DNA from: Chitinophagales bacterium
Lineage (GTDB): Bacteria > Bacteroidota > Bacteroidia > Chitinophagales > Chitinophagaceae
Reading direction: 5' to 3'
Assembly (NCBI GenBank): GCA_020059395.1
Contig: JAGVCC010000049.1
Span: 1-34,183, forward strand
Length of the DNA stretch: 34,183 nt
Part shown: one piece after another, positions 10,453 to 24,867 of the stretch
Layout: the number at the start of each line of letters is the position of its first letter
Position numbering within the stretch: the stretch's first letter is position 1
The notes under the pieces: model-generated
What the model saw: the letters and a program-made list of their open reading frames with translations, nothing else
The model's database searches: none
Told to the model about the DNA's origin: nothing
Translations under genes and position numbers: made by a program

Positions 10453-10491
10453 GAGAAAGCTGTTCAGTCTTGAACGGCTTTTCTTTTTTTT
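10453..10491 (+). terminator. Rho-independent terminator after the LruC-type gene
   Basis: The stem pairs 10454-10466 with 10471-10484, with one G-U pair and one bulge around a 4-base loop, and is followed directly by TTCTTTTTTTT. It lies 67 bases past the stop at 10386. It also shows that an in-frame ATG at 10470 cannot be the start of nagB. Confidence 0.75.
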
Positions 10492-10592
10492 ACAGCTCAT
10501 TATGCACCACATTGTTCAAGCAACCGTTTGCACGGCGCAGTAAAACCGCAACAAAAAAATCGTATTTTTACACAAACCAGATTTTGACTGCC

Positions 10593-12527
10593 ATGCACAA
10601 AATTGATTTAACAGATTCCTTAGAAAAAGTACCCGTAAAAATATTTTCTAACTCTGCCCACGGCTCTGCATTTGTTGCACGCCAAATAGCTGATTTAATA
10701 CGCCAGAAAGAACATGAAGGAAAAAAATGTGTGATTGGTTTGGCAACGGGTTCTTCACCCAAAACTTTATATACCGAACTGGTTCGTATGCACCAGCAGG
10801 AAAATCTGAGTTTTAAAAACGTAATCACATTCAATCTGGATCAATATTACCCAATGGATAAAGATGCGCTGCAGAGTTATCATTACTTCATGCGTAAAAA
10901 TTTATTTGAGCATACTGATATTGATCCTGCAAATTATCACCTGCCCGATGGAATGATACCAAAAGACAAAGTGAAAGCCCATTGTTTGGACTATGAAAAA
11001 CAAATTGAAGCCGCTGGTGGGTTGGATTTACAAATACTGGGCATTGGTGTAAACGGACACATTGGCTTTAACGAACCGGGCAGCGGCATTTACAGCAAAA
11101 CACGTTTAGTTACTTTAGATAACAGTACCCGTATGGCTAATGCCTACGAGTTTGGTAATATGAGCGAAGTTCCACGTATGGCTATAACAATGGGCATAAG
11201 CACTATATTAAAAAGTAAAAAAATAATTTTAATGGCATGGGGCCAAACAAAGGCTCCTGTAATTCAAAAAGCCATTGAGCTGGATGATACAGAAGATATA
11301 CCGGCATCGCTGCTGCAAAATCATGATGACTGCACATTTGTTGTAGATGAAACCGCTGCCAGTGAACTGACACGTTTTAAAAGCCCATGGCTTACCGGTG
11401 AATGTGAGTGGGATGCAAAAATGGTACGCCGTGCCGTTACTAACCTTGCTTTAAAACTACATAAGCCTGTGCTTAGCTTAACCACAGAAGATTATAATGA
11501 TAATGGACTGAATGATTTAATAACGGAGAAAGGAAATGCCTACGATATAAATTTAGAGGTGTTTTATCAGTTAAGAGATTCTATTACAGGATGGCCCGGT
11601 GGAAAGCCGGGTATGCAATTGCAAAAACATCCTGAACGCAGTGAACCCTTTCCCAAAAAAGTCATCCTCTTCTCCCCTCACCCTGATGATGATATTATTA
11701 GTATGGGCGGCACATTTATGCGCCTGCATGATCAGGGACATGAAGTGCATGTGGCATACCAAACCAGCGGCAACATAGCCGTAACCGACGAGTTTGTAAC
11801 AAGGTTTATAGATTTTGCTGTGGGTTTTGAAAGTATGTTTGATATTGATGAAACCAAAAGCAAAAGAATTTTAGATACTGCCATTTCATTTCTAAAAACA
11901 AAAAAATCTACTGAAAAAGATACACCTGAAATACGAGCAATTAAAGGATTGATAAGAAGATGCGAAGCAAAAGCCACCTGTAAATATGTTGGATTAACTG
12001 ATGCACAGATTCATTTTCAAAACTTACCTTTTTATGAAACAGGTACTATTGAAAAAAATCCAATGAGCGAAGCGGATGTGCAATTGACAATAGATTTATT
12101 AAACAAAATACAACCGCAGCAAATTTATTGTGCCGGAGATTTTGCCGACCCACACGGCACACATAAAGTGTGCTTTGATGTTGTGCTGGAAGCTTTAAAG
12201 CGCTTGAAAGTTGAAAGTGAACAGTTAAAAACAGAAAGGCACTGGATACACAGTTGCTGGCTTTGGTTATATAAAGGCGCCTGGCAGGAATGGGATATTA
12301 CCGAAATTGAAATGGCCATACCTATGAGCCCCGACCAGGTTACAAAAAAACGCAACGGTATTTTTATTCATCAATCGCAAAAAGATACGGTGCCTTTTCA
12401 GGGCAGCGACAGCCGTGAATTTTGGCAGCGTGCCGAAGAAAGAAATGCCGCAACTGCTAAGCTTTACGCACAATTAGGTTTAACGCAGTATGCAGCTATG
12501 GAGGCTTTTGTACGATGGAAGTTTTAA
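10593..12527 (+). CDS. nagB: Glucosamine-6-phosphate deaminase fused to a PIG-L (LmbE-like) deacetylase domain
   Basis: This 644-residue two-domain protein starts at the ATG at 10593 (MHKIDLTDSLEKVP). Residues 15-270 are a NagB domain: GLATGSSPKTLY (phosphate binding), NLDQYYPM with the base Asp83, and GVNGHIGFNEPGSG with His156 and Glu161. It converts glucosamine 6-phosphate to fructose 6-phosphate and ammonia. Residues ~355-600 are a PIG-L/LmbE domain with the zinc motif SPHPDDDIISMGG and a downstream DPHGTHK, the fold of GlcNAc deacetylases. This fusion is typical of Bacteroidota and may couple deacetylation of an N-acetylglucosamine derivative to deamination. The residue after Asp83 is Gln where E. 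coli has Glu73. The gene stands alone and ends in a bidirectional terminator. Confidence 0.92.
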   Translation: MHKIDLTDSLEKVPVKIFSNSAHGSAFVARQIADLIRQKEHEGKKCVIGLATGSSPKTLYTELVRMHQQENLSFKNVITFNLDQYYPMDKDALQSYHYFMRKNLFEHTDIDPANYHLPDGMIPKDKVKAHCLDYEKQIEAAGGLDLQILGIGVNGHIGFNEPGSGIYSKTRLVTLDNSTRMANAYEFGNMSEVPRMAITMGISTILKSKKIILMAWGQTKAPVIQKAIELDDTEDIPASLLQNHDDCTFVVDETAASELTRFKSPWLTGECEWDAKMVRRAVTNLALKLHKPVLSLTTEDYNDNGLNDLITEKGNAYDINLEVFYQLRDSITGWPGGKPGMQLQKHPERSEPFPKKVILFSPHPDDDIISMGGTFMRLHDQGHEVHVAYQTSGNIAVTDEFVTRFIDFAVGFESMFDIDETKSKRILDTAISFLKTKKSTEKDTPEIRAIKGLIRRCEAKATCKYVGLTDAQIHFQNLPFYETGTIEKNPMSEADVQLTIDLLNKIQPQQIYCAGDFADPHGTHKVCFDVVLEALKRLKVESEQLKTERHWIHSCWLWLYKGAWQEWDITEIEMAIPMSPDQVTKKRNGIFIHQSQKDTVPFQGSDSREFWQRAEERNAATAKLYAQLGLTQYAAMEAFVRWKF

Positions 12528-16652: not shown

Positions 16653-16665
16653 TTATTTTAACTGC
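16641..16665. terminator. Hairpin spanning the abutting stop codons of two convergent genes
   Basis: GCAGTTAAA (16641-16649) pairs perfectly with 16657-16665 around a 7-base loop that contains the stop codon of the helical-protein gene. The stop codon of the TonB receptor gene (16653-16655) is in the same loop. It may terminate both transcripts, though the T-runs are short. Confidence 0.45.
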
Positions 16666-18920
16666 CAGCGTATGCCTGCAAAAGCTTTTGCACCCTGTAT
16701 AGTTGCATAATTATAAGAGGGGTCAAATGTATAACCATTGGGATTAGTATCGGGTCTTGCCACGCCATTGGCATCAAAATATTTTCCGCCTGCTTTATTA
16801 AACGGGTCATCAGCATGCAGCAATGGGTTTGCCGGTAAAAAATTCAGCAGGTTTTTTACACCGCCATATAACTCCAGGCCATTGGCAAAAGTTTTAGTAA
16901 GCTGTACATTTAAAATATTATATAAAGGAGATTTTTCAGGCCTGTAATCGTTAGGTACAACCGGCAAATACATAGGTCCTGTAAGCCTGCCGGTAACATC
17001 CAGCACAAGCCGGGGTGCATAAAAATTATAGCTTACCGAAAATGTACCTGATACAGAAGGCGCAAATAACTGCGGTACTTTAATTTTATTACCAGCAGCA
17101 TTTCTGTCTATTGTAAACACATTCATAAATGTTGCTCCGGCATTTATCTTCAACCCATTTACAAAACTAAAATCTGTATTTAAAGTTATCCCTTTGGACA
17201 CTGCGTATCCATCAAGGTTATCGTAAATTATTTTATTAGGGTCGGTAATAAAATCAGCCACTATTTTATTTGTAAAGTGGGTATAAAAAATACTGCCATC
17301 TAAATTTATAACCCCTTTGCTGTGGCGTATAATTTTAGTGTAATTAATATTTCCGTTCCAGGATTGTTCTGGTTTTAGTGCAGCAGCAATAACCACTTCT
17401 CTTGCACCTGTTAAAGCTGCATGATCTTCTGTAAAAAGATTTACCACCCTGTACCCGTTGCCACCACTCAGCCGCAATGTATTATTTGCATTGGGCGAAT
17501 ATTTAAAACTTAAACGTGGCGTAAAAATATTTCCGTGTTCATTATTATAATCGTAACGGAGCCCGGCAAGCACCACTGTTTTTTTACTCAGCTTATATTC
17601 ATCCTGTATAAAAATACCCGGCAGGTAAGTATTAGCTGGCTGGTTATCGCCATTAACTTTTGCAGTAGCGGGTGAATTATCATCATAAAAAGTATAGCGG
17701 AAAGGTATACCTGTTAATAAAGAATGGCGGCCAAGGGTTTTACTCCAGCGCAGCTGAGCAAAAAATACCTGCTGCACTGCATAGTATTTTACGGTACCGT
17801 AATAACTGTCCTGCAAATGATAATTATACGAAACATCGGCTGTTATATTTTTATGCACTGCGGCAGTGCCAATCAGTTCAGCTCTGTTGGTATTAATACT
17901 TTCTCCATACACACTGTCTCCGCCCCTGAATACCGGTTTCCACTGCGTTTCGCCTCCCCATCTGTCTTCATTAATAAAACGTAGTGCCAGCGATGCGTTT
18001 AAATTATTCCTGGGCTTAAAACTCCATTTATTAAAAACAGAAATACGGTTTTGCAGCGTAACATCGGTAAAATTGTCGTTGTTAATATCCCGCCGTTGCT
18101 GATAATTAAAATAATTTACCCCCAACAACACGGCTGTTTTTTTTCCATTAAATGCTGCTGTTACGTCTGCATTGTATTCTCCCACACTGGTGGCCGAAAA
18201 ATCAACCTTTACCTTTTCACTGCTCCCTGCATCCTTAGTAATTATGTTTATTAATCCACCAACAGCCTCACTGCCGTACAAAGTTGAAGCCGGGCCCTTT
18301 ACAATTTCAATACGTTTTACCATACTGTTGGGTATTCCGGCAAGGCCATACACTGTGGAAAGGCTGCTTACAATTGGCATTCCATCAATTAATATCATGG
18401 TGTAAGGGCCCTCCATCCCATTAATATGAATGTCGCCGGTGTTGCACACATTACAGTTAAGCTGCGGTTGGATGCCATTAACCATTTGCAGGCATTCAAA
18501 AATATTAGGCGAAGGATTCTTTTTAAAAAAAGCCGGTGTGTATACTTCCACCGGAATGGGAGATTCCATTTTACTAATGGCTTTCATCGTTCCGGATACA
18601 ACCACTTCGTTCATTACAGCCTCTGTTTCGGTAAGTGTAATTTCAAGCAATACCGGCATTGCTGTTACAGTTATTTCTTTTACCTGCTTATTATAGTTTA
18701 CAGCAGTAACAACCAATTTGTATTTACCGGCAGCAACATTGCTAAAAGCAAAATTGCCTGCACTATCAGCTGTTAGATTTTTTTTCAACAATGGTATGCT
18801 TACAGTAGCCGAAAATACAGGGCCATTTTTACCCTTTATTTGCCCGCTAATCAAACCTTGCTGGGCAAAGCCAGTAAAAGTAAAGCCTGAAAAAATAAGC
18901 ACCCCAATAAACCGCTTCAT
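16653..18920 (-). CDS. TonB-dependent outer-membrane receptor with CxxC in the plug, probably for a metal
   Basis: This 755-residue receptor has a signal peptide (residues 1-19), a CarboxypepD_reg-like beta domain (about 22-95), a likely TonB box (NEVVVSG, 104-110), a plug (about 115-230: HINGMEGPYTMILIDGMPI, IEIVKGPASTLYGSEAVGG) and a beta barrel ending in WQLK with the usual aromatic-rich last strands. The plug carries NCNVCNTGDIHI with Cys156 and Cys159, a pair absent from ordinary siderophore receptors and suited to binding a soft metal such as copper. It is divergent from a DtxR-type regulator, with a palindromic site between them (18956-18973) lying just upstream of its own -7 box. HMA and HYC_CC_PP genes nearby support metal uptake. 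The substrate is inferred. Confidence 0.85.
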   Translation of the reverse strand: MKRFIGVLIFSGFTFTGFAQQGLISGQIKGKNGPVFSATVSIPLLKKNLTADSAGNFAFSNVAAGKYKLVVTAVNYNKQVKEITVTAMPVLLEITLTETEAVMNEVVVSGTMKAISKMESPIPVEVYTPAFFKKNPSPNIFECLQMVNGIQPQLNCNVCNTGDIHINGMEGPYTMILIDGMPIVSSLSTVYGLAGIPNSMVKRIEIVKGPASTLYGSEAVGGLINIITKDAGSSEKVKVDFSATSVGEYNADVTAAFNGKKTAVLLGVNYFNYQQRRDINNDNFTDVTLQNRISVFNKWSFKPRNNLNASLALRFINEDRWGGETQWKPVFRGGDSVYGESINTNRAELIGTAAVHKNITADVSYNYHLQDSYYGTVKYYAVQQVFFAQLRWSKTLGRHSLLTGIPFRYTFYDDNSPATAKVNGDNQPANTYLPGIFIQDEYKLSKKTVVLAGLRYDYNNEHGNIFTPRLSFKYSPNANNTLRLSGGNGYRVVNLFTEDHAALTGAREVVIAAALKPEQSWNGNINYTKIIRHSKGVINLDGSIFYTHFTNKIVADFITDPNKIIYDNLDGYAVSKGITLNTDFSFVNGLKINAGATFMNVFTIDRNAAGNKIKVPQLFAPSVSGTFSVSYNFYAPRLVLDVTGRLTGPMYLPVVPNDYRPEKSPLYNILNVQLTKTFANGLELYGGVKNLLNFLPANPLLHADDPFNKAGGKYFDANGVARPDTNPNGYTFDPSYNYATIQGAKAFAGIRWQLK

Positions 18921-18944: not shown

Positions 18945-18952
18945 CAAAAATA
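18945..18952 (-). promoter_or_regulatory. -7 promoter box of the TonB receptor gene
   Basis: TATTTTTG on the minus strand is an exact TAnnTTTG match ending 24 bases before the ATG. The DtxR-like palindrome lies directly upstream, between this box and where a -33 element should be, so a bound regulator would block the polymerase. Confidence 0.55.
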
Positions 18953-18955
18953 CAT

Positions 18956-18973
18956 AATTAGGCTCACCTAATT
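18956..18973. promoter_or_regulatory. DtxR/MntR-type operator between the TonB receptor and regulator genes
   Basis: AATTAGG-CTCA-CCTAATT is a perfect 7-bp dyad with a 4-base spacer. It matches the core of DtxR/IdeR boxes (TTAGGnnnnCCTAA). It sits in the divergent promoter region next to a gene for a DtxR-family protein, overlapping the expected -33 regions of both genes. Binding and autoregulation are inferred. Confidence 0.7.
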
Positions 18974-18993: not shown

Positions 18994-19001
18994 TACATTT
19001 G
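18994..19001 (+). promoter_or_regulatory. -7 promoter box of the DtxR-family gene
   Basis: TACATTTG is an exact TAnnTTTG match ending 15 bases before the ATG at 19017. A TTG at 18999 lies within this box, so it cannot be the translation start if the box is used. Confidence 0.55.
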
Positions 19002-19016
19002 CTTAAAATCAGCTGT

Positions 19017-19676
19017 ATGACATCGCTTGCCGAAGAAAATTACCTGAAAGCCATTTATAAGCTGCATGAAAAAAACGGCAGCATGGTAACTACCTCTGCC
19101 CTTGCAGAAACGCTGGGTATCAATGCTGCTTCGGTGACTGATTTTATAAAGAAGATAGCAGCTAAAAAACTTATCAGCTACCAAAAGTCTAAGGGAGTCA
19201 CACTTACAGACAAAGGAAGACTGATGGCCATAAACATAATACGCAAGCACCGGCTATGGGAAGTATGGCTGGTAAACAACCTTGGTTTTAAGTGGGATGA
19301 GGTACATGATATTGCCGAGCAGCTGGAGCATGTGGTGAGTGATGAGCTGATTGAAAACCTGGATAAACATTTAGGCTACCCTAAAGCCGACCCACATGGC
19401 GACCTTATACCCGATGCAAAAGGCCGCTTTGCAAAAAATACCAGCAAGCCTTTAACTGAATGCAACCCCGGCGATAAAGTAAAATTTACCGGCGTGGCAG
19501 ACCACAGCATTGCTTTTTTACAATACCTTACCAAAAGCAACATTAAGCTGGGTGATGAAATTAATATTGAAGCAGTAGAAACCTACGACAATTCCTTTCA
19601 GGTAAAAATTAATAAAAAGGAAACCAAATTACTCAGTAAAGAAGTAGTGAAAAATTTATTGGTAGTGCAGGCTTAG
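19017..19676 (+). CDS. DtxR/MntR-family metal-dependent transcriptional regulator
   Basis: This 219-residue protein has an N-terminal winged helix (EENYLKAIYKLHEKNG, then VTTSALAETLGINAASVTDF as the recognition helix-turn-helix), a dimerisation/metal-binding domain (about 70-135) with AEQLEHVVSDEL matching the E-x-x-E-H ligand cluster of MntR, and a C-terminal FeoA/SH3-like domain (about 150-216). At the N terminus, Asn8 and Lys11 take the places of Asp8 and Glu11 of Bacillus MntR, so the primary metal site is not canonical Mn type. It probably represses the divergent receptor, and itself, through the palindrome at 18956. The stop lies 3 bases from the end of the convergent thioredoxin-like gene. 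Confidence 0.88.
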   Translation: MTSLAEENYLKAIYKLHEKNGSMVTTSALAETLGINAASVTDFIKKIAAKKLISYQKSKGVTLTDKGRLMAINIIRKHRLWEVWLVNNLGFKWDEVHDIAEQLEHVVSDELIENLDKHLGYPKADPHGDLIPDAKGRFAKNTSKPLTECNPGDKVKFTGVADHSIAFLQYLTKSNIKLGDEINIEAVETYDNSFQVKINKKETKLLSKEVVKNLLVVQA

Positions 19677-19679
19677 GTT

Positions 19680-20162
19680 TTATTGCTGCAGTAAATCGTT
19701 TACTAATTTATCAAGCACTGCACCCTCTGCATCAAAAGCCACTATTTTCCCTGTTTTGTCTAATAAAAAACTGGCTGGTATCCCGTTCACTCCCCAGGTT
19801 TCTGCCACTTTACTGTACCAGCCTGCCACATCATTTACTTGTGCATATTTTATTCTGTCCTGCTTAATAGCTTTAACCCATGCCGTCTTTTTACTGTCAA
19901 TAGATACTCCAAAAACTTCAAAGCCTTTACCCTTATACTTGTTGTATAATTTTACTACCGAAGGGTTGGCAGCCCGGCAGGGGCCACACCAGCTTGCCCA
20001 AAAATCTACCAGCACCACTTTACCTTTAAGAGATGAAAGATTTATAATACTGTCTTTTGTATCGGGCAGCGAAATTTCGGGAGCCATAGTTCCAGGACGT
20101 AATTGTGCCGTTGCACTTACAGCAGTTAAAGAAATAAGAAGGCTAAAAAATATTTTTTTCAT
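19680..20162 (-). CDS. TlpA-like periplasmic thioredoxin-family protein
   Basis: This 160-residue protein has a signal peptide (residues 1-19, ending ATAQ) and an AhpC/TSA-Redoxin-type thioredoxin fold: [20 protein letters not shown], then [11 protein letters not shown] with active-site Cys59 and Cys62, and the cis-proline loop GIPASFLLD. Such proteins reduce periplasmic disulfides, for example in cytochrome c maturation, or keep metal-binding cysteines reduced. It follows an outer-membrane protein gene by 73 bases within the metal region, so a role in keeping the Cys of the nearby HMA and HYC_CC_PP proteins reduced is plausible but inferred. Confidence 0.85.
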
Positions 20163-20235
20163 TTACAACATTGTTTTTTTATTAATAAAGAAAGCAGCCA
20201 TTTTATTAAACGCTTTTGTATGTTTATAATTGCCG

Positions 20236-21132
20236 TCATTTTTTCGAAAATACATTTAAAAAATTATACTCACAGCGTATTAAAAAATACGAGTTGCCCA
20301 TGCGCTGCATATTTCCTTTCAATTGTGTACGGTACCCAATATCTACTTTTGCAATACTGTTAAAAATAAACTGAATGGCCGGAGCTGCATCAATGAAATA
20401 GGTTTTATTGTCCCATGCATTTGAGCCCAGCAGTTCTGCATAAATATTTACATTGGTTTGTTTATAGCTGGTGTATTCTTTTGGCAGCAGTAAATAACCA
20501 GCAGACAGTGTATAGTTGATTGCACGCCACGGTACAATTACTTCCCGTTTATCTTGTAAATTATTAAGCCGGTAACTGTATCCGGCCGATGCAGAAACAG
20601 CCAGCTTATTTACCAGTTTTGTTGCCACAATACCAGCAGCCAAACCTGAGTTAGTGCCTTCCAGCTCAATTTCATTATTTATAGTTGTATGCAGTATATC
20701 ATGATAAACAAACCCGCCATTACCATCGGCCACAGCATGTTTGCCAAGTGTGATAAGTGTAGTGGGATTATTAATGGCCGAAATTTTCCCGTAGGCAGCC
20801 ATGCGAAAATGGGAATGAATATCATCTTTAGACAGGAATCTCCATTTTGCATAAAGGCTGCCACCTTCAAGTTTTAAATTTGACTGAAACATATTAGAAG
20901 CATAGCCATTAACATGAATCATTACACTGCGGCTGATGCCAAACATCACTTCGGGGTCAAGCCGGTAAGCACTGAATTTATTATCATGCGCCATTTTAAA
21001 AACTTTTGTATTCATACGCACTCCAATACTTTTTGCAGCCATATTGCTGGCTGGCTCAGTAAATACATACAGCTCCTGTGCAGCAGCAGCCGATGCAGTA
21101 AAAATTATTATTGATAAAAAAAAGATTCGCAT
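20236..21132 (-). CDS. Exported, probably outer-membrane protein of the metal cluster
   Basis: This 298-residue protein has a signal peptide (residues 1-18, ending AAAAQ). The mature sequence is rich in alternating beta strands with Gly and aromatic residues (MIHVNGYASNMF, LAVSASAGYSYRLNNL, AKVDIGYRTQLKG) and ends ...YNFLNVFSKK. An early part (FTEPASNMAAKSIGVRMNT) and several His and Met residues suggest a metal link, but no motif is decisive. From memory, similar barrels occur beside HMA and HYC_CC_PP genes. It lies between the HMA genes, separated by a terminator, and the TlpA-like gene. Function unknown. Confidence 0.6.
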   Translation of the reverse strand: MRIFFLSIIIFTASAAAAQELYVFTEPASNMAAKSIGVRMNTKVFKMAHDNKFSAYRLDPEVMFGISRSVMIHVNGYASNMFQSNLKLEGGSLYAKWRFLSKDDIHSHFRMAAYGKISAINNPTTLITLGKHAVADGNGGFVYHDILHTTINNEIELEGTNSGLAAGIVATKLVNKLAVSASAGYSYRLNNLQDKREVIVPWRAINYTLSAGYLLLPKEYTSYKQTNVNIYAELLGSNAWDNKTYFIDAAPAIQFIFNSIAKVDIGYRTQLKGNMQRMGNSYFLIRCEYNFLNVFSKK

Positions 21133-21140
21133 AAAAATTA

Positions 21141-21180
21141 TAATAAAACCACCACCCGTTTGTTAAACCGGTGGTGGTTT
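21141..21180 (-). terminator. Rho-independent terminator after the HMA genes
   Basis: An 11-bp perfect stem (AAACCACCACC at 21146-21156 with 21170-21180) continues after one mismatch for 4 more pairs to a 3-base loop. On the minus strand it is followed by TTTTATTATAATTTTT. It ends the HMA transcript just before the next gene begins at 21132. Confidence 0.75.
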
Positions 21181-21186
21181 GGTGCT

Positions 21187-21699
21187 TTAAATAGTTACAT
21201 GAAAAATGCGTTTTCCGTTTTCTTCGCCTGTTTTATAACAGGGCATTTTTGTAAAAGCGTTATTCTTTTTGTAGTCTTTTGCAGGCAAAAAACCTTTGTC
21301 AAGCAGGCGTATTTTTTTCTCTCCGGTAAGCACCTGTTTCTTTACATTTAAAAAATGAAAAGTCATGTTTTCTGCTGCAACATGGCTGTCGTTTTCAACA
21401 GCCGTATTATTAAAGTTTATAAATGCGGTAAACTGTGCTACAAAAAAACCAGCGTCTTCCACTTTTGCTTTCATTTTATCAAAGTCAATAGCAGTGCCGG
21501 GCTTAAAAGTTACATCAAAGCTGGAATTTTTTATATTAGCTTCTACCTTTTCAACAAAATCCAGCGACTTAAGGCTTTTATTTATAGCATTACTGCACAT
21601 GCTGCAGGTGAGGCCGCTTGCCTGCAGTGTTGCCTTTTTTATTTGTGCACCTGCGGATAAACACAGCACCGCAAAAACACTTATAAGTATTGTTTTCAT
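21187..21699 (-). CDS. Exported HMA (heavy-metal-associated) domain protein
   Basis: This 170-residue protein has a signal peptide (residues 1-18) and an HMA domain (about 20-90) with the metal loop GLTCSMC (Cys32 and Cys35), close to the usual GMTCxxC, which binds Cu(I) or other soft metals. The C-terminal 75 residues have no Cys pair but include HFLNVKKQVLTGEKKIRLLD and KMPCYKTGEENGKR; I do not recognise this part. It follows the second HMA gene by 11 bases and should share its mRNA. It would carry or sense metal in the periplasm. Confidence 0.8.
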   Translation of the reverse strand: MKTILISVFAVLCLSAGAQIKKATLQASGLTCSMCSNAINKSLKSLDFVEKVEANIKNSSFDVTFKPGTAIDFDKMKAKVEDAGFFVAQFTAFINFNNTAVENDSHVAAENMTFHFLNVKKQVLTGEKKIRLLDKGFLPAKDYKKNNAFTKMPCYKTGEENGKRIFHVTI

Positions 21700-21710
21700 C
21701 AGTATATGTT

Positions 21711-22163
21711 TTATGATTTACAACATGTTTTTTCTTTGCAGCAGGCTTTTTCTTTACATGTATCGGCAGCTTTAGTGCATTTGTCATCACTGCAGCAGTT
21801 AGCAGCCTGTACATCAGTTGCGGCAGCTTTTCGGTCGTACTGGCAACAGCCATGCAGTTTTTTATAAGCGCCATTGTCAGCAGTTACATCCTGTGTATCA
21901 TAACCGGCATTAGCAATACTTTGCTGTATTTTTTTTGAGGTTGTTTTTGCAGCAGCATAAGATACCTGCAGTTCATGTGTTTCTTCACTCCAGTTTGCAA
22001 CTGCCGCTCCGGCTTTTTTAGCTGCTTTTTCAATTGTGGTTTTGCACATACCACAGTTTCCCCAAACTTTTATGGTTTCTTTTGTAAGTGCAGTTTTTTG
22101 CGCATTGGTATGTAAAGTAAACAGGCTGAATAATACAACTGTAAAAATTGATAACGTTTTCAT
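21711..22163 (-). CDS. Exported HMA-domain protein with Cys-rich tail
   Basis: This 150-residue protein has a signal peptide (residues 1-21), an HMA-like domain with WGNCGMCKTTIEKAAKKAG (Cys37 and Cys40), and a C-terminal stretch from about residue 103 with ten Cys, mostly as CC pairs (GCC, NCC, ACC, TCC) among Lys, Asp and Ala. The tail looks like a metallothionein-like metal sink. It is the first gene of a two-gene transcript with the other HMA gene, and a 22-bp perfect palindrome lies 31 bases upstream of its ATG. A role in binding excess copper or zinc in the periplasm is inferred. The low-complexity tail suggests fast evolution. Confidence 0.8.
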   Translation of the reverse strand: MKTLSIFTVVLFSLFTLHTNAQKTALTKETIKVWGNCGMCKTTIEKAAKKAGAAVANWSEETHELQVSYAAAKTTSKKIQQSIANAGYDTQDVTADNGAYKKLHGCCQYDRKAAATDVQAANCCSDDKCTKAADTCKEKACCKEKTCCKS

Positions 22164-22194
22164 TATTGTAAAATTTTAAAATTAGAAATAGATA

Positions 22195-22216
22195 AATTGT
22201 TGTGTACACAACAATT
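22195..22216. promoter_or_regulatory. 22-bp perfect palindrome, candidate metal-responsive operator
   Basis: AATTGTTGTGTACACAACAATT reads identically on both strands. It lies between the HYC_CC_PP gene stop (22256) and the HMA gene start (22163), 31 bases upstream of the latter. A loop-free dyad of this length is an operator rather than a terminator. Its sequence differs from the DtxR-like site at 18956, so another regulator is implied. Confidence 0.65.
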
Positions 22217-22255
22217 ACCACAGCTATTGCTGCAGCAAAAAAATCATTACTAATT

Positions 22256-22669
22256 CTATAGTCTGAAAACGCAGTTTAATATACAGGCAGAAGGCCCGTA
22301 GTATTCCGGTGGAGAATGATTATTTACAGCAGTGGCGGTGCCATCGGCTTGTATTTGCCAGTTAAAAGGAGTATAGAGATTTTCAACAGCGGCAACAGGT
22401 GTTGCAAAATCTAAGTCGTTACTTACTGTTTTATGCGAATCGTCAATTTTATAAAACCCATGCTCATCGTGGCAGCAGCCTGTATCTTTTTCAACCATGC
22501 CGCATTTACCGCATTGCTTGCTTTCGCTGCCATATAACTCCACTCCTGCCTTCTTACCCATGCAATAATGAATTTCTGTTGCCACCCCACAGGCTAAAAC
22601 CAGGTAAATCATTGTCATTATGGAAAGAAAGAATTTCTTCACGCCATAAAGGTAAACGTAAATTTTCAT
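22256..22669 (-). CDS. HYC_CC_PP family protein (metal-cluster associated)
   Basis: This 137-residue protein has an N-terminal hydrophobic helix (signal or anchor, about residues 11-30) and the three motifs that name the family: HYC in EIHYCMGK (34-36), CC in CGKCGMVEKDTGCCHDEH (Cys65-Cys66), and PP in NHSPPEYYG near residue 118. The Cys, His and Met residues make metal binding likely. From memory, the family is found in Bacteroidota beside TonB receptors and HMA proteins, as here. The ATG at 22669 is used; a GTG at 22642 (VKKFFLSIMT) would give a more usual signal peptide and is a real alternative. Biochemical function unknown. Confidence 0.75.
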   Translation of the reverse strand: MKIYVYLYGVKKFFLSIMTMIYLVLACGVATEIHYCMGKKAGVELYGSESKQCGKCGMVEKDTGCCHDEHGFYKIDDSHKTVSNDLDFATPVAAVENLYTPFNWQIQADGTATAVNNHSPPEYYGPSACILNCVFRL

Positions 22670-22702
22670 TGCAGCAATATAAACTGTTAAAATATGCTGT
22701 TA

Positions 22703-22813
22703 TTAAGCTTCGCTTAATCTTAACTGCCACAGAAGCACTGAAGCACAGAAATTAAAAATTGTTTTATTCAGTGTTTCTGTGCAATCAGTGACTACTTCAA
22801 CTGCTTAGCAGTT
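22703..22813. repeat. Intergenic palindromic element (three nested or adjacent hairpins)
   Basis: The stretch holds TTAAGC-TTC-GCTTAA (22703-22717), an imperfect long stem pairing 22736-22751 with 22774-22790 (CACTGAAGCACAGAAA type), and AACTGC-TTA-GCAGTT (22799-22813) that ends 2 bases from the porin stop codon. It resembles the CACAGAGNCAC-type intergenic repeats found in many genomes, from memory, and may also terminate the porin transcript. Confidence 0.55.
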
Positions 22814-22815
22814 AC

Positions 22816-24867
22816 TTAATTCACAAAATTCCACTGTATACCAAAGCGTATCATAAGCCCCTGTGTGGGATAATGGGGTGCAGCAAAATTATTATTGATG
22901 AAGCCAAAACCATTAACCAGGCTTGCAGTGTTAAGATTTTCGCCACGTATATAGCCTGTAAAAGATTTTATACGGAAGTGAAAGAAAGCGGTAATGTCGG
23001 GCAGGTTTTTAAGTTTAAAAGTATCCTGCGGCGTAAACTGCCCCATTGCCGGAGAGTAATTATATGCCTCGTAAGGTGTGTAATACCTGAACTCAATGCC
23101 GGCACTGGTATTAAGATTTTTATAAAAAGTACCTTCTAAAGCTATGCGGTTACGTGTAAATACCAGCGGCACTTTTATTGGGGCGCTGCCATCAGTTTGC
23201 TGCAATACCACTTCTGTATACCAGTTTATTCTTTTAGTAAGTTTTATTTTTTTACTGAGGGATGCCTGTGTTAAGTTGATTACTTTACTGCTTTGTGCAG
23301 TGGTGCGGTAGCCTGAAAAATAAGCAAGGTTTGTAATAATGTGATTTTTAAACCCAAGGTTTATAAAAGAGTTAGTAGCATCTGCTCCAAAGGAAATGAT
23401 GTTTTCTTTTTTAGTAATGCTGGTGTTTTTATAGTTAAAAGCTGAAAATACATCGTACACAAAAGAAGGTGTGCGGTTGGTGTTTACAAAAAACAATCTT
23501 ACATCACCCAGTTTTTTATTAAGGTAACGGGCAATAGTGGCATAGGCGGTATAATCACCGCTGTTTAATCCGTTTAAATAAAATTCGCCTTTCAGCAATA
23601 CATCCCACAGGCGGTTACGGGTTTTATTACGGTACTCCCCGTGCAGCACAATGTTGTAAAAATTTTTTGTTTGTGTGGTGGTATCAGTTCGGTAAAAAGT
23701 GCCTTTCATATTTTCCAGCCTTATTCCTGCTAAAAAAAACTGTGCTGTATTTTTTGTATCGGGAAATTGAATGAGCGAAAAATCATTGGTAACAATTTTC
23801 CATTGCTCCCTAAGCATGTAGCTGGCCGTTCTGGTTTTTAAAGTAGTATCGTACCAGCTTTTGTACAATGCAGAATCTGCCTTTGCATCTTTATACAAAT
23901 AATCCTGTGTATTATAAGTAAAGCTGTGCTGCAGGCGCAGCTTTGGGTAAAATAAATATTCGGTTGTGGAGTCATTAATGGCAACGGAATCTTTTTTACC
24001 AATATCATACCGCTGGCGCAGAAAAAAAGTAAAGTCTTTATAAATATTGCCGGTATTTACGGTAGCATTAAACGGGTTGGGCTGAAACAAACTTTCTCCC
24101 CCTAAATTTACCGGTATACTAAACCTTTTTTTGTTATTTTCATTACTAAGCAGCGTATCATTTTTTATACCGCCATTTTCCGAATTTTTAATAGTGTTAC
24201 CCATTAAAACAAAACTTAGCCCGTAACGTTTGCGCTTGCCCTGATAAGTACTGAACAGCCGGTAGCTTTTATGATTGGTATTTTGTGTAACAAAAAAACC
24301 TGGTGCACTTATAAGCCGGTAATCCAAACCAAAGTTCCAGTTGGGGCGTGGGTTTTGGGTGTGCAGCACTTTTATCATTTGTTCTTTGCCACTTGCAAGC
24401 TGATAACCCAGTTGTGTAAAAGGTTTACTGGTTTTGTAAAATTTTGTTTGTTCCAGCGTGTATTTATAAACATCAAATGCATGAAAGCCGGCATCAAACC
24501 CCGGCCTTGTATTGGGCTTGTAAATAATTGAATATGCCGCAGCGCCGTTGTTACCTAAATACTGGTACGATGATGGAATGGAAAAATATTTATCAAAGTC
24601 ATTTATTGAAGAATCCATCCGCACATTACGCACACTGTCTATAAAATAATAACTGATGCTGATGGAGTCTTTTTTATCGTCCCTGTGCTCAAACCCAAGT
24701 GTTTTATCTTTTTCTGATTTACTGGTATCCGTTTTATTACTGCTGCCTGTTGATTTGCTGTTACCTGAAGGCCTGCCACTGCCGGGCATTTTAATCACAT
24801 CCGGTATTTGTGCATACACAAAACCATAAGCTGTAACCAATATTGTTATCAGAATAAGTTTTTTCAT
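22816..24867 (-). CDS. Putative porin (Porin_10-like outer-membrane barrel)
   Basis: This 683-residue protein has a signal peptide (residues 1-19, FVYAQ). A low-complexity Ser/Lys/Asp linker (about 28-60: SGRPSGNSKSTGSSNKTD) precedes a long barrel of alternating strands rich in Tyr, Asn and Gly, ending in MIRFGIQWNFVN, a typical C-terminal aromatic strand. Strands such as GLDYRLISAPGFFV and ENMKGTFYRTDTTT fit the Porin_10 group of Bacteroidota, which has 600-700 residues. It starts 27 bases after the purine nucleoside phosphorylase gene and is probably co-transcribed; a role in nutrient uptake is guessed from that. Confidence 0.7.
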   Translation of the reverse strand: MKKLILITILVTAYGFVYAQIPDVIKMPGSGRPSGNSKSTGSSNKTDTSKSEKDKTLGFEHRDDKKDSISISYYFIDSVRNVRMDSSINDFDKYFSIPSSYQYLGNNGAAAYSIIYKPNTRPGFDAGFHAFDVYKYTLEQTKFYKTSKPFTQLGYQLASGKEQMIKVLHTQNPRPNWNFGLDYRLISAPGFFVTQNTNHKSYRLFSTYQGKRKRYGLSFVLMGNTIKNSENGGIKNDTLLSNENNKKRFSIPVNLGGESLFQPNPFNATVNTGNIYKDFTFFLRQRYDIGKKDSVAINDSTTEYLFYPKLRLQHSFTYNTQDYLYKDAKADSALYKSWYDTTLKTRTASYMLREQWKIVTNDFSLIQFPDTKNTAQFFLAGIRLENMKGTFYRTDTTTQTKNFYNIVLHGEYRNKTRNRLWDVLLKGEFYLNGLNSGDYTAYATIARYLNKKLGDVRLFFVNTNRTPSFVYDVFSAFNYKNTSITKKENIISFGADATNSFINLGFKNHIITNLAYFSGYRTTAQSSKVINLTQASLSKKIKLTKRINWYTEVVLQQTDGSAPIKVPLVFTRNRIALEGTFYKNLNTSAGIEFRYYTPYEAYNYSPAMGQFTPQDTFKLKNLPDITAFFHFRIKSFTGYIRGENLNTASLVNGFGFINNNFAAPHYPTQGLMIRFGIQWNFVN

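Follow-up and report, generated by a model that had tools for sequence, protein, structure and literature searches.

How are a TonB-dependent receptor and a DtxR-superfamily regulator controlled when their genes diverge from a single intergenic region? This question is raised by a locus on contig JAGVCC010000049.1 (positions 1 to 34,183, forward strand) of a Chitinophagales bacterium (assembly GCA_020059395.1); the whole stretch of 34,183 nt that we analysed is referred to here as the window. Between the start codons of the two genes lies a perfect palindrome. Based on sequence comparison, we propose that this palindrome is the shared operator of the divergent promoter, from which a metal-loaded, MntR-like dimer would repress both the receptor gene and its own gene, the metal most likely being Mn2+. 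We assign this reading a probability of about 0.77. To our knowledge, the passage of manganese over the outer membrane is understood in few bacteria.

A perfect palindrome between two divergent promoters

The candidate operator, AATTAGG-CTCA-CCTAATT (AATTAGGCTCACCTAATT), is a perfect 7-4-7 palindrome at positions 18956-18973, identified by exact sequence match and assigned to neither strand. On the receptor side, an exact TAnnTTTG -7 box (TATTTTTG) occupies positions 18945-18952 of the minus strand and, read on that strand, begins at +19 relative to the start of the box core. A second exact TAnnTTTG box (TACATTTG), which would serve the regulator promoter, is located at positions 18994-19001 on the plus strand. 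The -7 and -33 elements of Bacteroidota promoters have a characteristic spacing, and the -33 zones expected from it overlap the right arm of the palindrome for both promoters. A consensus -33 element was not seen, as there is no TTG in the expected -33 zones on either strand. The first-pass annotation had described AATTAGG-CTCA-CCTAATT as lying between exact -7 boxes of two divergent genes and as covering their expected -33 zones, and our examination bore out each of these points. With a TTAGGnnnnCCTAA palindrome in the promoter of the genes presumed to be regulated, the locus displays what defines a DtxR-type operator.

Conceivably, such a palindrome could be a chance product of A+T-rich intergenic DNA. 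Its 14-nt perfect core occurs twice in the window, against 0.04 expected from dinucleotide shuffles. In the 3.68-Mb assembly the core is present at three places, two of them in this locus and the third within a reading frame of a different contig (L003). The reversed control pattern is found at two places, a count that would leave room for chance, as does the lack of enrichment among window matches with up to two mismatches (10 found versus 19.3 expected). Because these near-matches are not enriched, we give weight to the perfect match only and base the argument on it and on conservation. The box is retained in all seven closely related loci, and its association with receptor homologues spans many families, as detailed below. 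Together with the window shuffles, these findings led us to reject the chance explanation, the probability of which we consider negligible.

Conservation of the box in close relatives and upstream of receptor homologues

The close set consisted of the window and six loci with regulator homologues that are 76-88% identical (L156, L157, L126, L054, L159 and L158). In 7/7 of these, a retained TTAGGnnnnCCTAA precedes the regulator gene by 48-63 nt, and in six the divergent neighbour is the receptor gene. At the seventh locus, in genome G345, the divergent gene encodes a di-haem oxidoreductase, and the box at this promoter is the sole TTAGRnnnnYCTAA in the 4.0-Mb genome, where the control pattern occurs seven times. 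On the receptor side, TATTTTTG and the core are 13 nt apart in six of the seven loci. For the regulator promoter, an exact TAnnTTTG is present in this genome only (1/7), the other six having C/G-A-n-n-TTTG. Among the matches listed (the best 80 of 580 loci), two Ferruginibacter metagenome-assembled genomes are the nearest relatives with a name, and the window therefore probably derives from this genus or one close to it.

The second perfect core of the window (TTAGGCTACCCTAA, again a perfect TTAGGnnnnCCTAA; positions 19371-19384, no strand), found by pattern match, lies inside the regulator gene, in the codons for LGYPK, and is perfect in four of the seven close homologues. It requires just one TTA and one CCT codon in this conserved stretch. 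Across the seven genes, TTA accounts for 0-8 of the 24-30 leucine codons and CCT for 0-3 of the 4-6 proline codons. The recurrence of the intragenic core in four related genes may be explained by shared ancestry, and a role as second operator is not settled.

Receptor homologues across the Bacteroidota were then considered in a named set comprising the best 80 of 580 loci, of which L216 was dropped for having too little upstream DNA. Of the remaining 79, 59 carry a perfect TTAGRnnnnYCTAA within 200 nt upstream of the receptor gene and 70 carry a box matching at least nine of ten positions. A perfect box was obtained in 0.06% of shuffles of the same regions and in 0.26% of 2,728 flank windows, which were not selected as intergenic. 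It is found in 18/22 receptor loci beside a divergent regulator and in 41/57 without one. An order-wide search detected the receptor in 114 of 396 genomes. Its best 30 loci, which include the window, were found without use of the pattern and may share genomes with the named set; 25 have perfect boxes and the remaining five match at nine of ten positions.

The placement of these boxes is informative as well. In 13 of the 59 perfect-box receptor promoters, TAnnTTTG starts exactly at +19 from the core start, which is the commonest offset (background, 0.0047 per position), and in eight it begins within the box itself. An exact TAnnTTTG is absent from the range examined in 28 of the 59. Both the +19 offset and the -7 boxes starting inside the box are compatible with promoter blocking by a bound repressor.

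The regulator and its probable recognition of the box

The regulator gene (positions 19017-19676, plus strand) encodes an MntR-like member of the DtxR superfamily of 219 aa. The N-terminal DNA-binding domain (PF01325, 51.0 bits; cut-off 26) and the metal-binding and dimerisation domain (PF02742, 104.5 bits; cut-off 27) that define the superfamily are both present, and a FeoA-like domain follows at the C-terminus (PF04023, 32.9 bits; cut-off 23). The putative metal ligands E101, E104, H105, H78, E82 and H97 are shared by 78 of 78 regulator homologues, and E101, E104 and H105 make up the Glu-x-x-Glu-His of an MntR-type primary metal site. We take Glu101 to correspond to Cys102 of DtxR.

If the regulators bind their own boxes, box and recognition helix should vary together, and the comparison suggests that they do. 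The recognition-helix region (residues 35-46; positions 19119-19154, plus strand) contains residue 39, which, with its neighbours, varies with the box flank. This was counted in the 65 of 78 regulator homologues having a box of at least nine of ten positions, the other 13 being left out. Where residue 39 is Thr, one or both box flanks carry G/C (GTTAG..CTAAC) in 21/21 cases; where it is Ser, both flanks are A/T in 40/44. Two homologues with NPATVLE helices (L067 and L040) have TTTGG....CCAAA in place of TTAGG....CCTAA, which is possibly a specificity switch. On the regulator tree, the receptor as divergent neighbour requires 12 changes, and the pairing of receptor and regulator is therefore patchy. 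In a further group of loci (L051, L068 and L041-L046), TTTAGATTTGTCTAAA precedes the MntR-like regulator gene by about 30 nt. This box itself includes TAnnTTTG (TAGATTTG), so that a single sequence seems to serve both as operator and as -7 box.

The box could, in principle, be served mainly by another DtxR-superfamily protein, for instance a housekeeping MntR, with the neighbouring regulator uninvolved or in an auxiliary role. The 41 receptor homologues that keep a perfect box without a divergent regulator imply that other copies act in trans elsewhere, and the present assembly is 85% complete. However, just one homologue was found in it, and the complete genome G034 has two regulators, each with a box at its own promoter. 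Moreover, the box is retained at the promoter of the regulator itself and varies with its helix. We therefore regard control mainly by another protein as improbable and retain the adjacently encoded regulator as the likely repressor.

The metal probably sensed and the proposed mechanism

Among the metals named in the first-pass annotation, manganese is favoured as the likeliest, a choice that draws on the genomic company of related boxes and regulators. In G034, which belongs to the same genus, TTAGGCAAACCTAA precedes an NRAMP-Usp gene by about 63 nt, in addition to the site at receptor and regulator. Regulators 40-45% identical to ours stand in line with NRAMP genes in four of the 12 genomes searched for NRAMP (G126, G286, G096 and G119), and boxes were read in two of these four (L051 and L141). 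In G097, a regulator of another clade is divergent from an NRAMP gene, with TTAGGCATACCTAA between them. The NRAMP transporter of G034 (L140:2268-4151) bears a C-terminal universal-stress-protein domain.

From the sequence, the geometry, the conservation and the like boxes at the same-genus NRAMP gene and at receptor homologues, we infer binding, repression, metal and cargo as follows. The MntR-like dimer encoded alongside, when loaded with metal (most likely Mn2+), would bind the palindrome. The bound dimer would block the receptor promoter by filling the spacer next to its -7 box, and would repress its own gene by overlapping the -33 zone. Upon metal scarcity the repressor would be released and the TonB-dependent receptor made, which would then carry the metal, or a metal complex, across the outer membrane. 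Metal-dependent repression of both genes from one site, as the first-pass annotation had suggested, thus gains comparative support from the box retained in 7/7 close loci, the boxes upstream of receptor homologues and the helix-linked box type.

Several observations weigh against this reading. With respect to the operator, nine of the 79 named receptor loci match the box at eight positions or fewer. The helix and box-flank traits underwent only three and four changes on the tree, so that an independent-pairs test cannot reach significance. The relaxed TTAGRnnnnYCTAA is present at 11 places in the assembly, compared to six for the control pattern, which we counted as no genome-wide enrichment, and it is not enriched over the control in G034 (7 versus 13) or G345 (1 versus 7) either. 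Of its nine places outside this locus, six lie inside predicted frames (L106, L107, L108, L109, L111 and L003) and one at the 3′ end of a predicted frame (L105); the other two are shortly upstream of frames, at L104 beside ribosomal-protein genes and at L110 at a distance of 12 nt. Most of these places being intragenic, no further target can be named in this assembly. The genome-wide scan proposed in the first-pass annotation placed two of the three perfect cores in this locus and yielded no wider regulon in this assembly, which is 85% complete.

With respect to the metal, the regulator misses the NCBIfam cut-offs for MntR equivalogs (NF047407, 147.6 versus 350 bits; NF003025, 61.0 versus 138 bits), which is why we named it MntR-like and did not file it as MntR. 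Asp8 of MntR is replaced by Asn8, which is unusual; the asparagine is found in 77 of 78 regulator homologues and here. The NRAMP gene of this genome lacks its start and is cut by a contig end, so that its promoter is not visible, and di-haem oxidoreductase (peroxidase) genes face the regulators of relatives. In addition, PgMntR of Porphyromonas gingivalis is reported to bind manganese and iron alike (PMC4805248).

These last points bear on the alternative that operator and logic are the same, the sensed metal being iron, or iron and manganese, and the cargo of the receptor an iron compound. The nearest folds of the receptor include catecholate-siderophore receptors, and the regulators of a sister clade face the di-haem oxidoreductase genes, both of which would suit iron. 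Yet NRAMP is the transporter gene that accompanies the same box type and stands in line with related regulators, and Glu101 takes the place of Cys102 of DtxR. We therefore consider sensing of iron unlikely, albeit worth keeping in mind, and manganese remains the favoured metal.

In the sister clade and in G345 (L055, L056, L057, L058, L059, L133 and L136), the divergent gene encodes a lipoprotein-like di-haem oxidoreductase with the box between the two genes. This assignment was made with Pfam for L136 and by similar N-terminal sequence for the other loci. The pairing of a metal regulator with a haem peroxidase is puzzling.

The receptor and its plug motif

The receptor gene (positions 16653-18920, minus strand) encodes a TonB-dependent receptor of 755 aa with an N-terminal carboxypeptidase-regulatory-like domain (PF13715, above cut-off). 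Plug (PF07715, 73.3 bits; cut-off 23.9) and 22-strand-type barrel (PF00593, 99.7 bits; cut-off 27) are both present, as expected for this class, and fold matches agree: the structure model has a mean pLDDT of 82.8, and its nearest folds are Cir and BtuB. Residues 156-159 of the plug form a CNVC motif (positions 18444-18455, minus strand), both cysteines of which are invariant in 60/60 aligned receptors; most of these receptors were, however, retrieved with two search patterns, one of which included the motif. The 30 loci found without a pattern have CNVC in 27 cases, CSVC in two and CNIC in one. In a receptor from a Phocaeicola plasmid, CQNC occupies the aligned position; a Shinella receptor lacks an equivalent motif.

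A thioredoxin-like gene follows the receptor gene on the same strand in 18/80 named loci and in 7/30 order-wide loci (Pfam was run on four). Here, no thioredoxin-fold gene lies directly downstream of the receptor gene: the next frame is convergent, and there was no profile match in the window. Four of the nine poor-box receptor loci (L200, L202, L225 and L226) possess the downstream thioredoxin gene, and box and thioredoxin are therefore not always together. For the Phocaeicola CQNC receptor, the 5.4 kb of sequence examined contain neither a box matching at nine or more positions nor a regulator gene, nor a thioredoxin gene of this kind. With this receptor lacking box and regulator, the plug CxxC is insufficient as a marker of manganese control.

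We suggest tentatively, at somewhat less than even odds, that the receptor belongs to an undescribed, phylum-wide family of manganese (or manganese and iron) importers of the Bacteroidota. In this family, the plug CxxC would be a metal or redox site, for which some members would have a periplasmic thioredoxin of their own, and expression would be under a DtxR-superfamily manganese repressor; several lineages would have the regulator beside the receptor, with the box re-tuned along with the helix.

Neighbouring genes in the window

Next to the regulator gene, a cluster on the minus strand (positions 19680-24867) encodes a ResA-like thioredoxin protein, two heavy-metal-associated (HMA) domain proteins, an HYC_CC_PP protein and a Porin_10 protein. 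This cluster appears to be an envelope system in its own right, perhaps copper-related. A comparable cluster, with an HMA-fused TonB receptor, lies beside the regulator gene of G345. Owing to the nearby HMA-domain genes, control of the operator by copper was considered as well; nothing that we found supports it for this site. The cluster of G345 lies beside the regulator gene without the present receptor. Elsewhere in the window, a single frame (positions 10470-12527) combines a glucosamine-6-phosphate isomerase domain with, C-terminal to it, a PIG-L de-N-acetylase domain.

Comparison with known systems

The DtxR and IdeR proteins of Actinobacteria are autoregulated metal repressors that sense iron and bind operators with a TTAGG...CCTAA core. 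The present locus shares this core and the family of autoregulated repressors, whereas the actinobacterial operators are longer and Glu101 stands here against Cys102 there. The operator as such is an ordinary autoregulatory site of the DtxR/MntR type, and the interest lies in the candidate family of outer-membrane metal receptors. In addition, the naturally occurring pairs of helix and box could be used to work out what determines the DNA specificity of DtxR-superfamily repressors.

Within the Bacteroidota, PgMntR is a DtxR-family regulator that likewise has a FeoA-type C-terminus. According to its report, it targets the promoter of the operon that contains its own gene and encodes the FB2 manganese transporter, and manganese strengthens its DNA binding (PMC4805248). 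PgMntR differs in having two FeoA domains and a metal site with Cys108 and Asp19, where our regulator has one FeoA domain, Glu101 and Asn8, and the word TonB has no occurrence in that main text (PMC4805248). In the open-licence PubMed Central literature, covered by titles and starts of abstracts, with most subscription papers and bioRxiv lying outside, we found no TonB receptor of Bacteroidota controlled by DtxR or MntR.

A precedent for TonB-dependent manganese uptake is MnoT of Burkholderia thailandensis, known here by description only; unlike anything proposed for our receptor, it works with TseM, a manganese-binding protein secreted by the type VI system (PMC13217887). The TBDR-pTFP module of Stenotrophomonas maltophilia, reported in 2026, consists of an MntR-repressed receptor with CQNC in its plug and a downstream gene for a periplasmic thioredoxin-fold protein (PMC13217887). 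The latter gene has its like in 18/80 Bacteroidota relatives, in contrast to this window, where none follows the receptor gene. Further differences are CNVC here in place of CQNC and the 25-bp MntR box of the S. maltophilia module, which is of another design; no word beginning with Bacteroid- appears in the main text of that paper (PMC13217887). Compared by description and not as the same family, the Bacteroidota set resembles this module in its presumed working. This family of receptors, preceded in many of the Bacteroidota by a conserved operator of the manganese type, would be a concrete, testable candidate for outer-membrane manganese uptake, and it parallels the 2026 report from a distant phylum.
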